DNA from: Daphnia pulex
Lineage: Eukaryota > Arthropoda > Branchiopoda > Diplostraca > Daphniidae
Assembly (NCBI RefSeq): GCF_021134715.1
Contig: NC_060023.1
Coordinates: forward strand, 7,316,001-7,380,000
Length of the DNA: 64,000 nucleotides
Direction: 5' to 3'
The notes below the pieces were generated by a model. It was not told the DNA's origin and made no database searches. It worked only from the letters and a program-made list of their open reading frames with translations. How positions within the stretch are numbered: position 1 is the first letter of the stretch; every line of letters starts with the position of its first letter. Below are positions 15,501 through 53,283 of this stretch, piece after piece. A program made the position numbers and the translations under genes.

Positions 15501-17139
15501 ATGTTGTGACCTGTCTTGAGTGCGTAAATGTCGTTTTTTTTTTCTGTTTGGTCTTCCGAAATTCACACTACTAGTCGACCACCACAACACGTTTCGATCT
15601 TGGATCAGCAGACTCTGGACATGGTGGAAAACCCAAATTACAACGCCTCAAAGAACGTCTCTCTCCGTTTGTCTTCACCACGATCCGGAGGAAGGGTAAG
15701 GATAATTTTATCCATGACGCTTTATCCCGCTCTCTTTTCGGCCAGCCCTTCGGAAGAAGACGACGCCGTTAACGCGGACATGACATCGCACGCGCGTCAC
15801 TGCATCGTACGACGCATTCAGTCGGTGAGCGACGAGGAGGTTCCGGAAACTGCACCGTACCTGCTCAACCCACTTCTCGACAATCTGCGATCGATTGCTG
15901 CAACAGACACGACGAGTTAATCCAGACCATTTCAAACGGCTTTCCGTCGGAACACCGCCATTATCCACCAACTTCCGGCAATATGGGCCATCGGCCATCC
16001 GCGTGGATCTTTCAATTGACGACGGACTAGATGGATGGACTATACAACGGTCGGATCGTGGTGCACAAAGCAGCGCGACGTGAGATCCTCCGAAAGCTCC
16101 ATTCGTCCCACCAAGGTATCACCAGGACAAATCGACACGCGCCGTGGGTGCTTTACTGGACCGGAATGTCCAATGACATAGTCCTTCTAGTCGAAGGGTG
16201 TCAATCATGCTGGCAAGTTCGCTCAAGCATACCCAAGGAACCCATGTTATTGGAGCTACCACCGAATCGCATCTTCGAAGACGTCTCTGCCGATCTTTTA
16301 CAGTACGGGAATCTGCACGTGCTAGTCTATATCGATAGTTTGTCCAGCAGTACACAGGTGGCATCGAGATCCGACGGCCAACGACGTCATTGCAGCCATC
16401 GCCGAGAACTTCGTCGACTTAGGCGTACCCAACCGATTCCAGGACTTACTAGAGCTACGCAACACCCCGGGAGAAACGGGAACTTCCTCGAACGAAATTG
16501 TCTTTGGCCACAACCTGCGTTCAATAGTACCTGCTCATCATTCTTCTTATGCAACCCGCTGGAAAGCTGACACGATTGATCGCGACCGCATTGTCGCCCC
16601 CGCCGCCAAAGCGAAGTTTACTACGACGCAAACGCTCATCCTTTGGCCGCATTCAAGATGAAAAGACTAAATTATGGGAGAAAAGTCGGTGTCATCGTAG
16701 CCATTGGAAAAATCCGCTCTTAATCGCGTAAAATTTGCAAGCGGGAGCGTCATTTGGCGAAACCGGCACTTCCTAGTTCCTAGGTCCCATCCGCGCCGCA
16801 GTTTTCCCAGATACAACCGACTCAGAAGGAAGTCTGACCACACCACCTCGCGACGCGGAAGCCAACGCAACTGCTCCACATCCAGCAACCGATCATCCGA
16901 CATCTGATCCCCCCCCCACGTGACGTTGCCATCGTGAACGCCGATCGAATCGCCTCACTCTTTAAAAATTACATTAACTTTATGTCATTTCCCACACTCA
17001 AGTTGCTCCTTTTCCCCCTTCACTTATCGCTGTTCTCATGTAACCTATCGCCTTCAATTTTTAATTCAGATTTCGAGTTTGTTTTTCTCTTTTTTGTCTG
17101 TTGTTCGCTTCCCCATTCTGTGAAAGCTTGTGGGGGGGA
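15501..17139 (+). mobile_element. Ty3/Gypsy pol remnant (RNase H end, integrase, C-terminus)
   Basis: It begins with TGTTGTGACCTGTCTTG, the same word that starts the 3' LTR, and passes almost directly into RNase H coding (GLPKFTLL-like start, DHQPLVSILD-like and QRLKERLSP in mixed frames). Next come the integrase HHCC region (HSSHQGITRTNRH, YWTGMSNDI, CQSCW) and the catalytic domain start (FEDVSADLL, LVYIDSLSS). A deletion then leads to the C-terminal piece (RIQDEKTKLWEKS, then the IAIGK-type region in another frame). Protease, reverse transcriptase and part of integrase are missing, and several frameshifts are present. A polypurine tract (GTGGGGGGGA) precedes the LTR at 17140. Confidence 0.8.
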
Positions 17140-17395
17140 TGTTGTGACCTGTCTTGGCCGCTAGAGGGCCCCCATGTCGAGCCTAGAGCTAGAAGCTAAG
17201 CCTCAGTCTCATGTCGACCTAGTTGAGAAAAGGTCGTCGGTTTCCCTAGATGAAATAAAAAGATTCACAATCGAACCGTATACTCCTCCACTCGATCAAA
17301 ACAATAAACAGTATACAGAAAATAATTTAACACCTTATAATTCTGTATTTTAACTGACAGCTACAAACACGTACAAACTCAATAAACAAAAATGC
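17140..17395 (+). repeat. Gypsy 3' LTR-type sequence, copy A, with a 59-codon ORF
   Basis: It starts with TGTTGTGACC directly after the polypurine tract. Inside, an ATG at 17174 opens a 59-codon frame (MSSLELEAKPQSHVDLVEKR and SSVSLDEIKRFTIEPYT) ending at 17353. The copy at 55440 keeps the same frame with one extra codon (an AAG), so the only indel is in frame. The last part (CTGACAGCTACAAACACG onward) also occurs at 32780-32845. Confidence 0.6.
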
Positions 17396-19967
17396 TTTGA
17401 CCTGGGTGCGTATTATGTTTACCGATATTCCATAGTAGGTCACATCCGATAAGAATGTCCCATTCCTTCCTATTTGTTTTATGCTCATTTCGGTTGTCTG
17501 CCAACTTTTTCCCTTGTTTGGTGAGTTGCTCCGCTACTTGTGTGGGATAGTATTCAGTTGAGTTTGCTAGGAACTCTTTTTCAATAAATCTGTATTTGTT
17601 TTTTTGTGCGTTACCATAGGTTACCCATAGAGTACAGTCTACTATGTTATATCGACTTGTTTTGCACTTTTTTGTATCAAAGGTGCTGATGTCTAGTACT
17701 TTAGAATCGACGATTTCTTTCTTTGCATTCTTTATCGATCCTTTCCTTATGAAAGAGTTTTGGCTACCACTGTCCATGAGACCTATTAAACGTTTTAATG
17801 TCCCATCGTTCTGTTCGATGTACGCTGTAAATGTAGGCAGGATCCCTGTTCCATGTCTTTCATTGCCTTCTGTTTTGTTCATGCATGTCACTGATGTACT
17901 TGGCCTATTTGGTTTTGTAGTTCATACTGCCATGCTATGACCAGGTGAACTGCAGATACTGCAATTTCTTGTTTGTTTACAGGTTTCTGTAGGGTGCATC
18001 CCGAACAGACATTTGAGGCATTTTTTATTGTCTAAATAGTATTTTTTCCTTTCCTCTGGTGTACCAACTCTGCATTGACGCGGGTTTTGTAGCGTTGACT
18101 TACATGTCTTACATGGCACGTAACCGTCTCTCGGTTTTTCTTTCTTTTCCTCCTCTTGAGATTTGACCGGCCTTGCAATTTCTTCGGATTCTAAGATCCT
18201 GATTTCCTTGCTGATGTTAGTCAGCACATCCTTTAGTGTAGGTATGTGGTTTTCTTCCCAATTTTGTCTCCACCTTGTTGTCATATATTTGGGAAAGGAT
18301 TGTAATAATGCGTTAGTCGATTCTTCTTCATATGATTCATCTTTGACTCCAAGGTCTTGTAAACAAAGGACTTGGCTGGATAATCTATTCATTATGTTCC
18401 TCAATGTGTCCGCGTTGTATTGTGAAGGTATCGGTGTACCGCAAATCCTCCTTAGCTCCCCTCGTCTTAGGGCTATTGCTCTCGGTTTACTACCGTATCT
18501 TTCTTCCAGCTTTTTTTTGTATTTTGATAAGTTTCGTTGGAAAACGGGATGTCTTGGATAGCTTCTTTTGCTTTCCCAGTGATGCACTGTAAAAGCAGCC
18601 TAGCCTTTTCTGTGTCTGTGATTGACGTATCTTCATCGTACGTTTTCCATTGTTTAACCCATCCTAAATATCGCATTGGGTCCCCATCAAATTCTGGCAA
18701 TCCTAGTTTAGGTTCGGCTGTGCCGGAGTGTTTCGCAGTCGTGACTGATTTTCATCCTTGCTAGTAATTCATCTGCCGCGGATTTCGCTTTCCTTAATTC
18801 CCTTCTTTGGTTGATGTCACTACGCTGCCATATCTCATCGTGGGATTTGTTCAATATGATCTCGGCGGTTGTTGCTCGAGTCAGTGCTATCAGTTTATCG
18901 TCATTACTCCCGTTTTGGTAGTTAGCGTATTCACCATCTATCTCTTTTACTAACTCGTGAAACTCTGCTAGCCGGGCTTCGTATAATTCGCTTGTTTCAG
19001 ACGAGTCTGTTGGTGATATTTCTGTCGGCGAATTTACCATCCTGGTTCTCAGGTCATTTAATGCATGTGTCTGCTGTGCGTATTTTGTTTCCATTAAGGA
19101 TATTCGTGACTCTAAGAGAGCGATATCATTATCCCATTGTCTGTTTTGATGATATTGTTATCATTAGTTCTCTGTGCTCTCCGAATTTCTTTGACGTCCC
19201 GTTTAATTTTTTTCGTTTGATTTCTGATTAGTGTTTTAACCGTATCTTCTGCAATTTCTTCCTCTTCTTCTTCCTCACCCGACTCGAGATTAGCGTCCTC
19301 GTGTGAATCGTCTTTATCCGTTCCCCTTGACGGTGGAACCTCGCCTCACGGCTCTAGTCCCGTGTCGATCACTGTGTTTTCTCGTTCCTCTTCCGTTACA
19401 ACGGTTATTTTTTTGTTTTTGTTACCTCGCGTACGTTTGGATGGCCCTGCCTCATCTGCCATGTTTAGTGTGGTTTTTTTATAAGCAATATAAATGAACA
19501 TGGTTTAGTATGCAACGACCTTTGTATTACTATGTTTATACAATAGTTTCAATATCCATAGAATTAACGTCGTCTAATAACTTATCTTCGTCCTCTTTCT
19601 CTTTTTTCTGTTTCTCCAGTAACTCGTTCTCTTTGATCAGTTCTAATTTCCGTTTCTCCAATTCTTCGTTGCCTTTCATCAGCTCTAGTTGTTTGAATAC
19701 CAGTCTGAAATGCTCTGTTCGTCCCTTAACCGGTGTGTCCGGCGGAGTAATCGACACGGTATTGACGGCGATACTGCTTGAGCTTGCGTGAGCCACCAAT
19801 GTGTCTTTGTATTTATTGACTAGTTCTTGTTTCTTTTTGTTTATCTCTTCCTGCTTACGTTCAAGATTAGATATTTGGTACAAAACCTTTGTTTGTTGCG
19901 CTGCTATCGCGGCCTTGGCTGCTGCTTCTTTGGCCAGTGAGTCCTGGAATTGCTGCTTTTCTTCCAA
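17379..19967 (-). mobile_element. BEL/Pao retrotransposon remnant: gag and protease
   Basis: Minus-strand pieces in order: 19967-19536 (coiled coil, EEKQQFQDSLAKEAAAKAAI), 19094-18708 (ARLAEFHELVKEIDGEY), 18700-18473 (PEFDGDPMRYLGWVKQWKTY, the DUF1759-type gag core), 18587-17922 and 17891-17379. The 18587-17922 piece ends in zinc knuckles (CLKCLFGMHPTETC, CSICSSPGHS). The 17891-17379 piece is an aspartic protease of DUF1758 type with catalytic DSGSQNSF. Frames change between pieces, so it is dead. Reverse transcriptase, RNase H and integrase are absent: the fragment stops after the protease, where it meets the Gypsy LTR copy at about 17395. Confidence 0.8.
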
Positions 19968-19996
19968 TTCACAGAGCTTCTCCTTTGCTTCTGGTG

Positions 19997-20340
19997 TTAT
20001 ATGGTCAGAATTGAAAGCCAGTGGCCTGGGTGTGTGGTCTTTCCCAAGTTGTCTCTTAGCAGTATAACGGGCTTGCCCTTGCCTCCTCTTCTTGAATCCC
20101 TTGCGCGTCTAAGCAGGAGTGAAGCACGACACGTCTGACGGCGTAATTGACGTATTTGACCGATGACGGGCAACTTTCTAGCGGACAAAATAAATTTGCA
20201 ATCGGGTTAAACAAAACTACAAAAATTGCTATGTAAGCAAATAAGATTCTCACCGCTTCATTAATTTGAGTTTGCTGCGATAATAATTTATCTTTACATT
20301 CGATCATAGCTGGTTCATCGCTATTAACTTTACCCATCCT
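19997..20340 (-). repeat. Dispersed gene-like repeat, copy 1
   Basis: The minus strand opens with MGKVNSDEPAMIECKDKLLS followed by QQTQINEA and a GTGAGA donor at 20254. A hydrophobic run (ILFAYIAIFVVLFNPIAN) follows if unspliced. The segment 20105-20335 recurs at 61987-62225 in direct orientation. It may be the 5' exon of a repeated gene or element; no family is recognised. Confidence 0.45.
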
Positions 20341-28989: not shown

Positions 28990-29745
28990 CTAATAACTCT
29001 GTGTCTCTTACCGCAGACCTCATTATAAAGCAATCATCAATGGCTCCGCGGTTAAACGCTAGATTAAAATACACGTTAGTCTTGTGGCGCAGTGTCCAAA
29101 TCTCTAATCCAATTAAACAAACAATAAATTCACTCCTACTGCTTCTGATCTTGCTCCTGCTCCTACTGCTCCTGCTCCTGCTCTTGCTCTTGCTCTTGCC
29201 TGCTCCAGCTCTTGCTCCTGCTCTTGTTTCTGTTCCTGTTCCTGCTCTTGCTTCTGCTCCTGCTCTTGCTTCTGCTCCTGCTCTTTCTATTTCCTTTTCT
29301 CTTGCCAAGTCCAGCAACAAATCAACAAAAAAGCAAAGACGGCTCGTGGTAAAATTGCTCGTGCCTTACTTTTATTGCGTAATTGGCGTTATACAGAACA
29401 ATAGGTCGCAGATGTTCTTTAAATGCTGGCCCCATTGGCTGATCATTTCATTTTGTACATACAACTATGTAAGTTTTTACATTTGAACTTAACACAAAAT
29501 GCTTCTATGTTTCACGACAAAACTATGTTTGTCCAAAAATACCCCAGTCTACCCTATTCGGGGAAATTCTTTTTCTGTATATCTTTCAAAACATGAGCCA
29601 CTTTTTGTTGTATCAGTTGTTAATATCCTACAATTCGATTGTCATAGTTTCAGCTACTGCATAGAGAGAAATTCTCCATTTCACCGCTAAATTTTGAAAA
29701 TTAAATATTTGTTAGGCTACCATCCCTTAGACTCATTACATCCTT
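28990..29745 (+). repeat. Arm 1 of a 0.7-kb inverted repeat, with a hexanucleotide satellite
   Basis: The segment is matched by the reverse complement of 51012-51728. It contains a CTCCTG/CTCTTG-type hexamer array (about 29140-29290), which gives Leu-, Pro/Ala- or Glu/Arg-rich shadows in every frame. Flanking shared words include ACACGTTAGTCTTGTGGCGC and CTATGTAAGTTTTTACATTT. No frame is conserved between the arms well enough to call a gene. Confidence 0.75.
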
Positions 29746-46620: not shown

Positions 46621-47692
46621 ACCTTTCGCGCCACGTACACTCAATTCAACGCTAAATTTATTCCCGCCTAGGGTAAGGGACCCCCCGCGCATGTCAATGG
46701 ACTCGACTGTACCAAAAAATCTAATTTTTAGGAGAATCTGCAGTTGAAAAGCCCCAGAAAAATTAGGTGGGGTAGATATTTAAATTAATAAAAAACGATT
46801 CGATGAAAAAACAAATTTTAATTTAATTTATTGTGGAAGTATTTATAGTTTTTTATAAAAACCAATAAATGAGCTTTATTAAAAAACTAATTCCTACATT
46901 ATAAAGTTTGTTTTATGTTATAATACCCTGTGGTTTAATTACAATATCATTTATAGTATGCTTGATTGCATCACACCATGGGCATGAAGAGATCCTCCCT
47001 ACCAAAGGAGTAGAGCTTACTCCTTTGTTCTTACTCCATGATCTTTGAAAAGACATTACCGCACCTGCTTCTCCACGCAGATAAAACTTCTTAATAAAAT
47101 AGACCCCGAAGAGCCCTATAGTGGAATCGGCTTCTCTCAGCCTAGTCTTATGCAATTAAAGTTCTGTGAATGTAGTAAAAGTGCAATCATATCGAATGTA
47201 TATTCGTTTTTCTCCCGAAATTTATGTGGCAACGTTGCACCCCCTCATTTCTTAGCTGCGTTCTCTCACCCCCCAATTTACACACCCCTCTTTTTTTGTT
47301 CTAGAAACGGCAGAACATGTCCCGCTCTCCCATCGACAGATGGCTGTCTCTCGCTGTCTTTAGTCTAACCCAGAGGAGATTTTGAGGAAAGAGATTCCGC
47401 GGGGACATTCCACGACGAAATTCTTTTATAGCGCCTAAGAATAGGTTCTGCAACGGGATTGATGATTGCCCCATTACGATGATTATCCTTGATGTGGCGA
47501 TTTTAACTTCTGGGGTCTTTATACGACAAATAAAATTCTTTTGATGGTTCATCGCACTGAAAAAAATCCATCTCCCTGTTGCGTAATACCCTTACTTGTG
47601 TTCCCAATTGATGACATTTTTCCTAGAAACAACAAAAAGTACTAAGAGAGGAACAATAATAGTTTTTGACATAGATGTCTTAACAATCATAG
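46621..47692. other. No gene supported
   Basis: ORFs on both strands at 46913-47368 and 47301-47552 overlap and have no domains. One minus-strand peptide (VSSTPLVGRISSCPWCDAIK) looks protein-like, but nothing supports it. Confidence 0.3.
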
Positions 47693-47870
47693 GCGGACAC
47701 TTTCGTCCTTTCCGTGCTCTCTCTCTTCCAACTCGGCCACTCTTCCTTCTAACTTCTCCACTTTCTTTTTGAGCGCTCCCACCTCCTCATTCAGCTCGTC
47801 GTTTTCTCTTCGCAGGAGCTCCTCCACTTTTCTTGTCTCTTTGCTGCTCGATGGTTTGAGTGTGGATGTT
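47693..47870 (-). other. Coiled-coil exon, unassigned
   Basis: The minus strand reads TLKPSSSKETRKVEELLRRE, NDELNEEVGALKKKVEKLEG and RVAELEEREHGKDESVRL, then a stop. Heptads are regular over about 45 residues. It is too short for a long-ORF scan. It may be the last exon of the same damaged gene as the 48305-48559 ORF. Confidence 0.4.
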
Positions 47871-48304
47871 GCCGATTGTCCTCAGAGTGGAAGATGACAT
47901 GCACATAATTGTTGTCCAATAAAGCGACGAGCAGAAGGACACTCCGGCGTCGACATATTATTGGACTACATCAATAGGGCTTTCAGTGAGGTTATACCAG
48001 ATGGTAGCTCGATGTGATTAGTGGACTGTAAGTCGACACTCCGATTTGATTGAATTTATTGCGTAATTTTCCTGAAGATGCTCGACTAGGCCACGCTACT
48101 AATACGGCGACGACTATGGAACTATGGAACTACGGCCTCGTGTTGACTTCTTATCTTGTTCATCTTTTTCTATTAATAAAGAAAATCTGTTTCAAATAAA
48201 ATACTTTAAATGTGTTACCTGTAAAGAATCCTTACTAAAACATGTTATGTCCTCCGTTCCATCATTAGCTCCACTTGCAGGTTTTCTGCCAGCCTCCCCT
48301 CATT

Positions 48305-48559
48305 TTAATTCCGTAATGCAAGAGCTAGCTGCATGTTCTTCTCTTCAGCCTTTGTTAGTTGTTTAGTAAGTTGGATGATTTGGTTTTCGGCCCAATTAGC
48401 ATAACTAGAACTTTCCTCACTGTTGGATGCCAAGAGCTGGGCTCGTTGGTTCGTGACTTCTGCCACTATCGGCACTTTATTTACGATTACGCTTGTGCTT
48501 GCGATTACGCTTGTGCCGGCTATGCCCTTCTTTCGCTTCTTGGAAAATACTGTTTTCAA
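48305..48559 (-). other. Coil-forming ORF, unassigned
   Basis: 84 codons: a basic start, then AEVTNQRAQLLASNSEESSS, YANWAENQIIQLTKQLTKAE and EKNMQLALALRN. A following frame continues the same style (EGRLAENLQVELMMEG). It lies antisense to the sequence just before the addA remnant and overlaps its first codons, marking the junction near 48540. Confidence 0.35.
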
Positions 48560-49456
48560 GCTTGCCTTAAAGCATGAGTCCGTTTTCGTTTCGGAACGGC
48601 TTCGAGAGGCAGCGTCTTATTCGGGAGGACCCTTCCGGGAGGCCTATGATCTACTCAAACACCTGCAAGACCAACATGTTTCCCACACAACATTTAGTTT
48701 TTTCCCTTCTACTGAATAGCCTGGAGAGACGTCGTGAAATGGGTGAATGTTTAGGTCTGGATGCGTTGGAGGCCCTCGATGAATTGATTTGCATCAGCCA
48801 TCCTACGAAAAAAACCATCTCCTCTCTCTTACAAACTTTCTTAAGCTGGATGCACCAAAACCCCATTCAGATTAAGCGAGATTTTTAACAAGGACGTCCC
48901 GAGATGAAGTGCATGGCTCAAAAGGTCTTGAAGCACCCGTCGTGATTCTACTCGATACCGTTCATCCTGCATGAGATCTTCCCTCTTTTGTGTTGGTTAA
49001 ACAGCAAAATAAAAATTTTACCTGCTGGATACTACCAGAGATACGAACCCCCACATTGTTTGAAGGAGATTAAAGATAAAGAGGAAAGCTGGCAATTGGA
49101 ATAATATAACCGTCTTCTCTACGTCAGCCTCACCCGCGCCAGCGAACGGCTTTATATCTGTGGCTGTAAAGGCAAAAAACCCTGTCTGAGGCGAGTAGGT
49201 ACAGTCATATTCAATAGGCCATTAGCCAATCTCCTTCCTTTGAACCCTTCCCATTTGAAGGAGAAGAAGCATGGATCGAAGAGGGATATGGAAATATACC
49301 TCAGTTCATTCTCCCAAAATTCTTAAAACTTTAGAAATGGATACTTTTCAACAACCTCTCCCTTTTTGGGTAAAAGAAGGCTTCATCCATAAAAAAAGTA
49401 ATAAAGTAATCATCAGTGAAATCATGGAAAGAAAAATAAGCTTCTGCCAAATTGGC
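48540..49456 (+). pseudogene. addA: Bacterial double-strand-break repair helicase-nuclease subunit addA, decayed
   Basis: Successive plus-strand frames follow the order of the C-terminal helicase half of alphaproteobacterial AddA. 48540-48720: SERLREAASYSGGPFREAYD, LLKHLQDQHVSHTTFSFF. 48710-48888: LLNSLERRREMGECLGLDAL, EALDEL, LLQTFLSWMHQNPIQIKRDF. 48909-48974: VHGSKGLEAPVVILLDTVHP, the UvrD/AddA motif around TVHG(S/A)KGLEAP. 49105-49170: YNRLLYVSLTRASERLYICG, helicase motif VI. 49254 onward: EGEEAWIEEGYGNIPQF. At least five frame changes and an in-frame stop (49102) separate them. AddA with AddB resects broken DNA in bacteria; animals lack it. Ends meet unrelated eukaryotic-type sequence on the left and a hAT element on the right, so this is an integrated transfer that has decayed. 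Confidence 0.8.
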
Positions 49457-50534
49457 CATCACATCAGGGCTGGATCACCACGGTGAACTTACTACCGCGG
49501 TACTACCGTGCGGTAGCGGTAGTACCGCACGACTTTACTCTACCGCAGTACCGCGTTAGTTTTCAAATAACCGTGCGGTAGCGGTAGTTTTCTACGCCAT
49601 CTAGCGCTGATTTTGTATAACACAATAGAAAAACAATAGATGGGGCTCTAATTTTTCTGGAGCAATTCATCAGGCCTCTGTTGGATCACCAATCTTTCAC
49701 GTTTTTAGTCCAAACAATCATAGTTATCCATTCTTAAACTTTCTAATTGACATTTGCGAATGAAATTTCATGATATTGTAGGTCAACTTGAATAAAATAT
49801 GAGCGGCGTATAAACGCCTAGCGCCTTGAGTGAGAATAACTCTTGTTTTCCAGAAGCACGCGCACGCGTTCACTGCTTCTGAAATAAAACGTCGCACTTC
49901 CGTACTCCGCATGGTCGGAACGTTTGTTCTGCCTTGCTGGAAAGATCTATTGTACCAGTGAGCAGTTTCTTGAATGATTTTTTATTTTAAACCTTTTCGT
50001 TAAATTAAATCAAAAATTAACTCTAATTTATTTAATTACAAGAATTAAATCATGCAAGGGTGTTTAATTTAATTCGTGATTTAAACGGTTTAAAACACAG
50101 TGAATCACGGATAAATAATTTAATTGTAACAAGACGAGAAAATCATACAAATGAGAATCTTTTTGCCAAGATAAATTTAAAAAAAATATATTTTCAAAAT
50201 CAAAACATATTTGATTGAATTTTTTGATTGATACAATACTTCAAAAAAATTATTTCTGATTTTGAATCATTAATCAAAATAAATCGTGATTGCCACTGAG
50301 GAATGGGTTTTTAGATCCAAATTAAAAAGAAAATTTTTAATGAAAGTATATCAACTCTTCTATATTCCGCTTGAAATGGATTTGAAACATTTCAACATTT
50401 TAATTTGCAAAAGAATTAAATACTACCGCAGTACGACTACCGCTACCGTGGTAGTCCCTTAAACTACCGCGGTAGTACCGTACCGCGATAAATTTTTATT
50501 TTTTAAGACTACCGGGCCCTGCCCTGCATCACAT
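49457..50534. mobile_element. hAT-type non-autonomous element with 8-bp target duplication
   Basis: The element spans 49465-50526 (1,062 bp), flanked by perfect direct repeats CATCACAT at 49457-49464 and 50527-50534. The ends read CAGGGCTGG... and, inverted, CAGGGCAGG..., the hAT terminal signature. Subterminal regions are packed with CGGTAG/CTACCG words in both orientations (49485-49590 and 50420-50515). No transposase ORF is present. Confidence 0.85.
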
Positions 50535-51011
50535 TAATGTTACTTTGGAAATGTGGACTCACGTCAGTAAGGAATCGTACTCTCTCAAAATGGTTGTCGT
50601 GAAAAAGACAAAATGGCTTGTCGATTGCAATTATACGATACATAGTCTTGAAAAAGACGATAAATTTGTAGCCGTCGACAATACACTTTTTTGTCGTTTT
50701 CCGGCAATATGAGCCCGGCAGAAGTATCTTAAAAATTGCAATTTTAAAAGCTTTTTTTTACTCTGTTCTAGAACAAAAGTCTCTTCTAGTAACAAAAAAC
50801 TACATATTAATTCTAAATTTAGTTTTTTCAGTTTTCTTTTTAAATATTTTTTAAGAAGACATGCATAACAAAAACATCAGGGAAATCATGGATAGTAGTG
50901 GGTAACAACGCAGTTCCGCCAATGACACTAAATCCATTTTAACAATTAAGAGGTGGACAAATTTTATATTTAATTTAATGTGATTTGTGAATATAGTTAG
51001 GGAACCGGACG
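50535..51011. other. Flank of the hAT insertion, no gene supported
   Basis: The plus strand is open for about 60 codons after the target duplication (WTHVSKESYSLKMVVVKKTK, WLVDCNYTIHSLEKDD). It may be a gene scrap, but I do not recognise it. Confidence 0.3.
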
Positions 51012-51728
51012 CCTTAATACCTTCTAAGGGATGGTAGTCTAACAAATCTTTAATTTTCAAAATTTATCGGTGAAATGGAGAATTTCTCTCTATGCAGTAG
51101 CTGAAACTATGACAATAAATTGTACGATATTGAAAACTGATACAACAAAAAGTGGCTCATGTTTTGAAGGACATACAGAAAAAGAATTTCCCTGGATAAG
51201 GTAGTCTGGGGCATTTTTGGACAAGCGTAGTTTTGTCGTGAAACAAAGAAGCATTTTGTGTTAAGTTCAAATGTAAAAACTTACATAGTTGTATGTACAA
51301 AATGAAATGATCAGCCTATGGGGCCAGCATTTAAAGAACATCTGCGAGCTGTTGTTCTGTATAACGCCAATTACGCAATAAAAGTAAGGCACGAGCAATC
51401 TTACCACGAGCCGTCTTTGCTTTTTTGCTGATTTGTTGCTGGACTTGGCAAGAGAAAAGGAAATAGAAAGAGCAGGAGCAGAAGCAAGAGCAGGAACAGG
51501 AAAAAGAGCAGGAGCAAGAGCTGGAGCAGGCAAGAGCAAGAGCAAGAGCAGAAGCAGGAGCAGGAGGAGCAGGAGCAACATCAGAAGCAGGAGAAGTTAA
51601 TTTATTGTTTGTTTAATTGGATTAGAGATTTGCACACTGCGCCACAAGACTAACGTGTATTTTAATCTAGCGTCAAACCACGGAGCCATTGATGATTGCT
51701 TTATAATGAAGTCTGCGGTAAGAGACAC
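51012..51728 (-). repeat. Arm 2 of the 0.7-kb inverted repeat
   Basis: Reverse-complement partner of 28990-29745, including the AGCAGG/AGCAAG hexamer satellite (about 51465-51590). The arms are about 21 kb apart. Confidence 0.75.
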
Positions 51729-51963: not shown

Positions 51964-52532
51964 AAATAAACTTACTTTTTTGTCTTTTCCCCACCTACAA
52001 AAAACTCAATTTTCATCATGAGAAAGGAAATAGATGGTAAGTAAATAGGACACCATTTAATAAAATAATAGGTGCCGTGTTAAGTGGGTTAGGGCGCCAC
52101 CTTACACCTATTGTCAACATCTCAAATGTGATAGTGCTTACAACACTAAAGAGGCACCTAAAAAGCGTACATTTCCTTCCGTCCGTGGTTGGTGTCTTCA
52201 ATGATGTTTACCAAAACGTTTATAGTATACTAACTGACGTTAATTGACTAGAAACAAGCCTGTTACAGAAAGAGCCTAGACCGACAATCTATCTGGGTCT
52301 TAATACCACATAAAGCTAACAGCAGTAAGATCCCACCGGTTTTGGCGGGTTTTGGCTTATCAGGAATATTCAGTGAAAATATCCATTTTTTCACTATTTT
52401 ACCAAACGCAATGGTTCTTGGGTAGATAAATTCTTCTCGAGTATATGAATAACATTCATCATGAAAATAATAAAGAAAATTTGAAAATAACAATCTGATT
52501 GGTTAAATGAACGTCCAAAAGCTTCTATTTTT
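51964..52532. other. No gene seen
   Basis: Short ORFs at 52016-52201 and 52263-52493 have no domains. Confidence 0.4.
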
Positions 52533-53283
52533 AAATTCCCACCCTCCCCCCAAATTTGTATAATTAAGTAAATTAACTACAACTAGAATCAAGATAAAAA
52601 AATCTTAAAATTTAGAGTAATGGAATGAACTCCGTTGAGATCTATCGATAACTGTAAAATTTGAGTAAACATACCTGTAGAAAACAAATCCGAAAACAAA
52701 GAGACCAGTTTACATTTTTCCCTTTTTTCAAATCAGCGCTTAACTGGACCCTATCGAACAAAAATGGAAAAATGAAAACTGTTCAGTTTCTCTTTTCGCA
52801 ATTTTCCCATTGATTTTTTTACTCAAATTTTACAGAAATCCATGGATCTCAACAAGCTCTTTCCATTACCGTAAATTTTAAGGTTTTTTTAGCTTTATTT
52901 TAGCTGTACTTTTACTTTTAAGTTTCTGAGGGAGAAGGGACATAAAAAAACATAAACTTTTGATTGTTCATATGTCCATTCAGATTGATATTTGCCAAAA
53001 TATTTTGTAGTTTTCGTGATGCCTGTTCACTTGTCCACGCGAGGATGCTTTAAAATCAAAATTATTTGAAGTTTTAATAGGTAAATCAACAGGAAACTTA
53101 ACGACCAATAAGCTTGAACCCAAGCAGCGTGAACCACACCAACGAGGAAAATGGAGCGGGGCATTTTAATTTAAGATACCGTATAGCTTTTCTCTCTTAT
53201 CTGTCGCTTTATTTGGAATCTTCATATTCACATCTTCATACTCGCAAATGAAAGCAAAGGTAATCCAAAGATAAACCGATCAA

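Follow-up and report, generated by a model that had tools for sequence, protein, structure and literature searches.

How did a broken piece of a bacterial gene come to lie in a chromosome of Daphnia pulex, and what is it now? We analysed a 64-kb stretch of DNA (the window; C7:7316001-7380000, in an assembly of 133,188,837 bases and 13 contigs) for which an original prediction had proposed a decayed alphaproteobacterial addA gene. The sequence is very probably a non-functional nuclear relic of addA from a Holosporales-like intracellular alphaproteobacterium, whose DNA, with other genes besides addA, became inserted into germ-line chromosomes of the host.

The AddA protein of a Holosporales MAG (P0001) aligned by tblastn to window positions 48,492 or 48,498 to 49,378, which correspond to its residues 624-921. 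The top score was 108 bits, whereas none of 20 shuffles of the window in two-base blocks exceeded 28.1 bits and the reversed window gave 24.3 bits; by these scores the homology to AddA is real and far above chance. DNA homology to copies on contig C4 (see below) has its left limit at 48525 with one copy and its right limit at about 49397 with another. From these alignments and the family model TIGR02784 (addA_alphas), we place the dead addA fragment at 48498..49397 on the plus strand, representing residues ~624-927 of a protein of about 1,100. The predicted span of 48540..49456 is therefore corrected: the relic begins at about 48,498, with the junction in 48,489-48,524, and ends at about 49,397.

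The NCBIfam model TIGR02784 matched four of five pieces of this region (E 0.0022, 1.6e-6, 3.4e-5 and 1.8e-5); the fifth, 49259-49483, had no NCBIfam match. For all four matching pieces it was the top NCBIfam match, including the linkers that precede the motifs, ahead of the rep, pcrA and Gram-positive AddA models; rep and pcrA matched one piece weakly. In a whole-genome profile search, 48682-49179 matched TIGR02784 at E 1.7e-15 and 61.6 bits, short of the curated cut-off of 860.75 bits, as is expected because the window copy is a fragment. Homology is confined to residues ~624-927, and both the N-terminal Walker A and the recognised C-terminal nuclease domain are absent. The window sequence is a relic of an addA and not an AddA gene.

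Two helicase stretches, which we take to be motifs V and VI, lie on the plus strand in the order that the original prediction had given, at 48909-48968 and then 49105-49164. The motif V-like stretch DEVHGSKGLEAPVVILLDTVHP (48903..48971; TIGR02784 E 3.4e-5), with a stop just downstream, also matched Pfam UvrD_C_2 at E 5e-4, under the Pfam cut-off. The motif VI-like stretch YNRLLYVSLTRASERLYICG has its core at 49105-49164 and, with the residues that follow, occupies 49105..49179 (TIGR02784 E 1.8e-5 for 49105-49323). Compared with P0001, the frame of the relic shifts five times and is interrupted by four in-frame stops, one of them at 48886-48888; the claim of at least five breaks was thus borne out. 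No NCBIfam match besides addA was found in window 42,001-62,102, where Pfam returned one weak F-box-like match, and past the hAT-like element described below homology to addA was not above chance. Elsewhere in the window, at 17001-20000, the AT skew is strong (-0.24 to -0.41) across about 3 kb.

The relic lies between host repeats. To its left is host repeat DNA (47560..48488), which recurs mainly on C8 but also on C3 and further contigs. A copy on C8 matches up to 48488, and the repeat ends within 10 bases of the start of the relic. The left junction lies somewhere within 48489-48524. The end of the host repeat falls in a junction zone, 48484..48516, in which CGATTACGCTTGTGC occurs at 48484-48498 and again at 48502-48516. 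On the minus strand, a 103-aa open frame (48305-48616) runs from the host repeat through the junction into antisense addA.

To the right, a stretch of about 60 unassigned bases (49398..49456) is followed by a 1062-bp element (49465..50526) with the ends CAGGGC/GCCCTG, flanked by a perfect 8-bp target duplication, CATCACAT, at 49457..49464 and 50527..50534. A hAT element with such a duplication had been predicted to abut the relic: the duplication is as described, whereas the element is separated from the end of the relic by those ~60 bases. Across 42001-62102 there was no Pfam transposase match, and the longest stop-to-stop frame in the element is 85 aa; since no transposase was found, we class the element as non-autonomous and as hAT-like only. 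The genome holds at least 37 matches to it, its own included, and four of the others are near full length at 91-94%. It belongs to a multi-copy host family and was inserted later, in an event of its own. Beyond it, host repeat DNA resumes at 50580..51030, with copies on C10, C8, C3 and C7. Two further repeat features lie on this side of the window: 51023-51728 forms an inverted repeat pair with 29001-29731 (92% alike), and 52451-53000 has more repeat partners around 14.7-15.2 kb. The 64-kb window contains zero N bases, and in the assembly the bacterial-type DNA is contiguous with host DNA in the chromosome-scale contig C7.

As to the donor, the open stretches of the C4 and window addA relics were joined with X and searched against 5.8 billion proteins; the best 8,000 candidates were scored and 352 were significant at E <=0.001. 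The original prediction had proposed a search against bacterial proteins, with a better eukaryotic match as the refuting outcome, and a tree with Rickettsiales and Holosporales sequences. The best match was bacterial, the Holosporales MAG AddA P0001 (528 bits, 43% identity, 97% coverage), with the next match at 228 bits. A 54-row AddA tree was made by a quick method; it included only one row from Holosporales, had long branches, and many of its rows differed in letter composition. In this tree both relics, from the window and from C4, grouped with P0001 in a clade (SH-aLRT 100), with other Alphaproteobacteria outside. One Rickettsiales MAG on a long branch and 50 other AddA rows were also considered as nearest kin, and the tree placed none of them nearest. 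Among genomes of the class, 234 of 385 gave a match, with AddA up to 44% identical to P0001 among the matches listed. As far as protein similarity and tree placement go, the window relic is of alphaproteobacterial AddA origin and the donor looks Holosporales-like, a label that comes from one MAG protein on a 4,137-bp contig, under its depositor's name, and one tree row.

Among the best 5 of 1178 candidates scored for 16S, no bacterial relic was found: the sole match lay on C13 (15,333 bases), whose encoded proteins were recognised as animal mitochondrial. The eight other contigs examined are 6.6-16.3 Mb long. A review (PMC11909080) mentions Holosporaceae-related sequences among the microbiota of Daphnia cf. 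pulex, and these could come either from living bacteria or from host relics.

The window relic is part of something larger: related decayed genes lie on C4. Across the whole genome, the addA model gave 18 matches at E <=10. Of these, 12 lie on C4, two in the window, two on C1, one on C2 and one on C8; host helicases may account for some of the weak matches. At the DNA level, copies of the window relic were found on C4 at 73%, 73% and 80%, and on C1 (C1:878996-879093) at 91% over 98 bp. A short addA-like stretch at C8:5295809-5295898 is uncertain. Aligned with P0001, some C4 addA copies extend to residue 1 and others to residue 1064.

For C4, 77 kb of 137 kb were translated in all six frames, each stop being written as X, and scanned with profiles. 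The interval C4:7605001-7625000 matched ileS (2.6e-33), addA (1.5e-29), flgI (3.7e-17), dut (8.1e-15), mutL (2.6e-14) and rnhB (7.9e-12), as well as valS (2.4e-8), which we take for an ileS cross-match; Pfam also places a KDZ transposase domain inside it. On one side, C4:7588001-7605000 matched pntA (5.4e-33), a MagA/CPA2-type antiporter (8.1e-12), addA (9e-7) and mutL (3.8e-4), and on the other, C4:7625001-7645000 matched uvrA (1.1e-44) and addA (1.1e-24). This decayed gene cluster, C4:7588001-7645000, comprises pieces L015-L018, L026 and L027; pieces L028 and L123, also on C4, gave zero NCBIfam matches. Stretches of C4 occur in duplicate, with 87-95% identity between the copies and 79-81% in some cases.

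We know of no animal counterpart of addA, flgI or uvrA. All five genome matches to the flgI model lie on C4, as do all nine to the uvrA model (7.217-8.515 Mb; best 9 of 26 candidates scored). Animal homologues exist for ileS, pntA, mutL, dut and rnhB, and for these relics a bacterial origin is put forward on the strength of the models and the neighbourhood. Of 12 mutL matches, four fall at C4 relic sites (7.36-7.72 Mb) and eight resemble host homologues or are unassigned; apparent host genes outscore the C4 relics on the MutL model. Several genes of bacterial type (addA, flgI, uvrA and others) lie on C4, and we infer that they came from a single source bacterium. The proposal of a past transfer from an intracellular bacterium is supported both by the decayed addA in arthropod DNA and by its kin in this multi-gene relic.

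The same kind of sequence seems to exist in other public records. With single open stretches of the rnhB and dut relics as queries, five public proteins were found, three among 10 candidates for rnhB and two among 5 for dut. P0122, P0123 and P0124 match the C4 rnhB relic at 96, 89 and 80% identity, and P0125 matches the C4 dut relic at 91%. These four come from contigs 1.0-13.5 kb long. By our reading of the alignments, they run past the frameshift of the C4 relic into non-native residues; they seem to represent further relics of this kind, and their source records are possibly from the same species as the window. The fifth, P0126, is an ordinary-looking dUTPase with 54% identity to the dut relic.

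Several other accounts of the window sequence can be weighed against this evidence. Bacterial DNA is a stated concern for Daphnia pulex assemblies (PMC5427498), and the piece might be contamination or a misjoined bacterial contig; we regard this as very improbable. A misjoin does not sit well with a dead fragment of only 0.9 kb held between multi-copy host repeats with zero N, with a host hAT-like element and its target duplication beside it, or with further dead addA copies on C4 and C1, and the relics on short contigs of other records appear to share the C4 frameshifts. Co-option of the fragment, perhaps within a chimeric transcript of the host, is about as improbable: chimeras that include horizontally transferred sequence are described for Daphnia pulex and D. 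pulicaria in PMC13389597, and the 103-aa minus-strand frame does span host repeat and antisense addA, but its only Pfam match is ETRAMP at E 0.66, and the addA frames are broken and drifting near evenly. The window addA piece most likely has no present function.

UvrD/PcrA-type helicases share motifs V and VI, so a UvrD-type host gene or a transposon helicase could in principle be mistaken for addA, and one piece does match rep and pcrA weakly. We give this the least credence, since TIGR02784 is best for all four matching pieces, linkers included, the tree joins the relic with Holosporales AddA, and flgI and uvrA relics lie near the addA relics on C4. The reading that we retain, a nuclear relic of symbiont DNA, would have come about as follows. 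Bacterial DNA would have been set free in or near host germ cells and joined to broken host DNA, plausibly via end joining, which fits the short direct repeat CGATTACGCTTGTGC at the left edge. It would never have been functional in the animal and would subsequently have been copied and cut up.

How the relics have diverged bears on when this happened. Between the window and the C4 copy L014, 139 of 697 sites differ, distributed over the three codon positions as 49/234, 37/231 and 53/232 (0.209/0.160/0.228), an unevenness that is not significant (p 0.17); with the C4 copy L015 the counts are 51/234, 37/232 and 52/232 (p 0.16). Third positions hold 38% of the differences in the relic pair, compared with 50-62% in seven bacterial AddA pairs at distances similar to its own (0.157-0.212; p 0.004 against the lowest). 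Because the codon positions are not significantly uneven and the third-position share is low, most of the divergence between the window and C4 copies postdates the death of the gene; with the stops and frame changes, the pattern fits decay without selection after arrival. Against full evenness, the differences in the young pair L014-L015 (11/4/14) are borderline uneven (p 0.06).

The corrected distance between the window and L014 is 0.232. At the D. pulex mutation rate of 4.59e-9 per base and generation given in PMC7820357, this would place the split of the window and C4 copies about 25 million generations ago, or 11 to 75 million over the rate range quoted there; the age in years depends on the number of generations per year. 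If the split came after arrival, the insertion is at least that old.

A uvrA sequence at C4:8020371-8023086 (L127) shows much less decay than the remaining uvrA sites. It is near full length and has few breaks, and over its last third it matches a structurally characterised UvrA at E 2.4e-156. Compared with the uvrA relic that lies at 7.63 Mb on C4, it differs at 30/305, 24/308 and 54/307 sites by codon position (0.098/0.078/0.176; p 0.0005). Since differences are commoner at third positions, part of this divergence seemingly arose in working genes, and this one comparison hints that the uvrA at 8.02 Mb was a later arrival from a related bacterium.

One may therefore ask whether there were several transfers from related bacteria over time, with the window piece as an insertion of its own and not a copy from C4. 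We hold this only tentatively, at rather less than an even chance. In its favour are the third-position excess in the near full-length uvrA and, by our reading of the alignments, a stop and a one-base loss that are common to three C4 addA copies (L014, L015 and L018) and absent from the window copy. Against it, the window-C4 addA differences show no significant unevenness among codon positions, so that this divergence falls mostly after gene death, in keeping with one transfer and copying afterwards. By the same reading of the alignments, the window, L014 and L015 have in common a two-base loss in a T run, and the copy groupings conflict: shared breaks link different sets of copies. Several transfers would refine the explanation by symbiont relics and do not oppose it. 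A fuller and slightly more doubtful picture has a long-term heritable Holosporales symbiont of the Daphnia lineage whose DNA reached the nucleus on two or more occasions; its relics would span 1.3 Mb or more of a single chromosome, with stray pieces on others, and the near full-length uvrA would represent the later transfer.

The fate of this DNA is ordinary, namely decay; the input is what is remarkable, many Holosporales-like bacterial genes in the genome of a crustacean. The host is a leading model crustacean. If these results are confirmed, whether Daphnia ever harboured heritable intracellular symbionts becomes a question that its chromosomes can answer, and they caution that Daphnia sequences of bacterial appearance may in some cases belong to the host. 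Among titles and abstracts of the open-access literature, with most subscription papers outside our scope, we found no earlier report of a Holosporales-type relic in Daphnia.

Symbiont DNA in animal chromosomes is already known, chiefly from Wolbachia, whose nuclear DNA occurs in arthropods and nematodes. Like those insertions, the relics described here are decayed multi-gene DNA of an intracellular alphaproteobacterium; unlike them, they have a Holosporales-like donor and a Daphnia host, and the pieces are scattered and duplicated. Compared with the alphaproteobacterial AddA that TIGR02784 describes, the window copy keeps helicase motifs and linkers in order but is dead, and neither the Walker A region of the start nor a recognisable nuclease domain is present. 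Numts, the nuclear copies of mitochondrial DNA, offer another parallel, in that organelle or symbiont DNA was joined into the nucleus and is decaying, although the genes here are of bacterial type (addA, flgI, uvrA) and not mitochondrial. According to PMC11909080, Holosporales are associated mostly with protists. Candidatus Hepatobacter, as described there, likewise places Holosporales within crustacean cells; it is a living infection of the hepatopancreas, whereas what we describe is a chromosomal relic.
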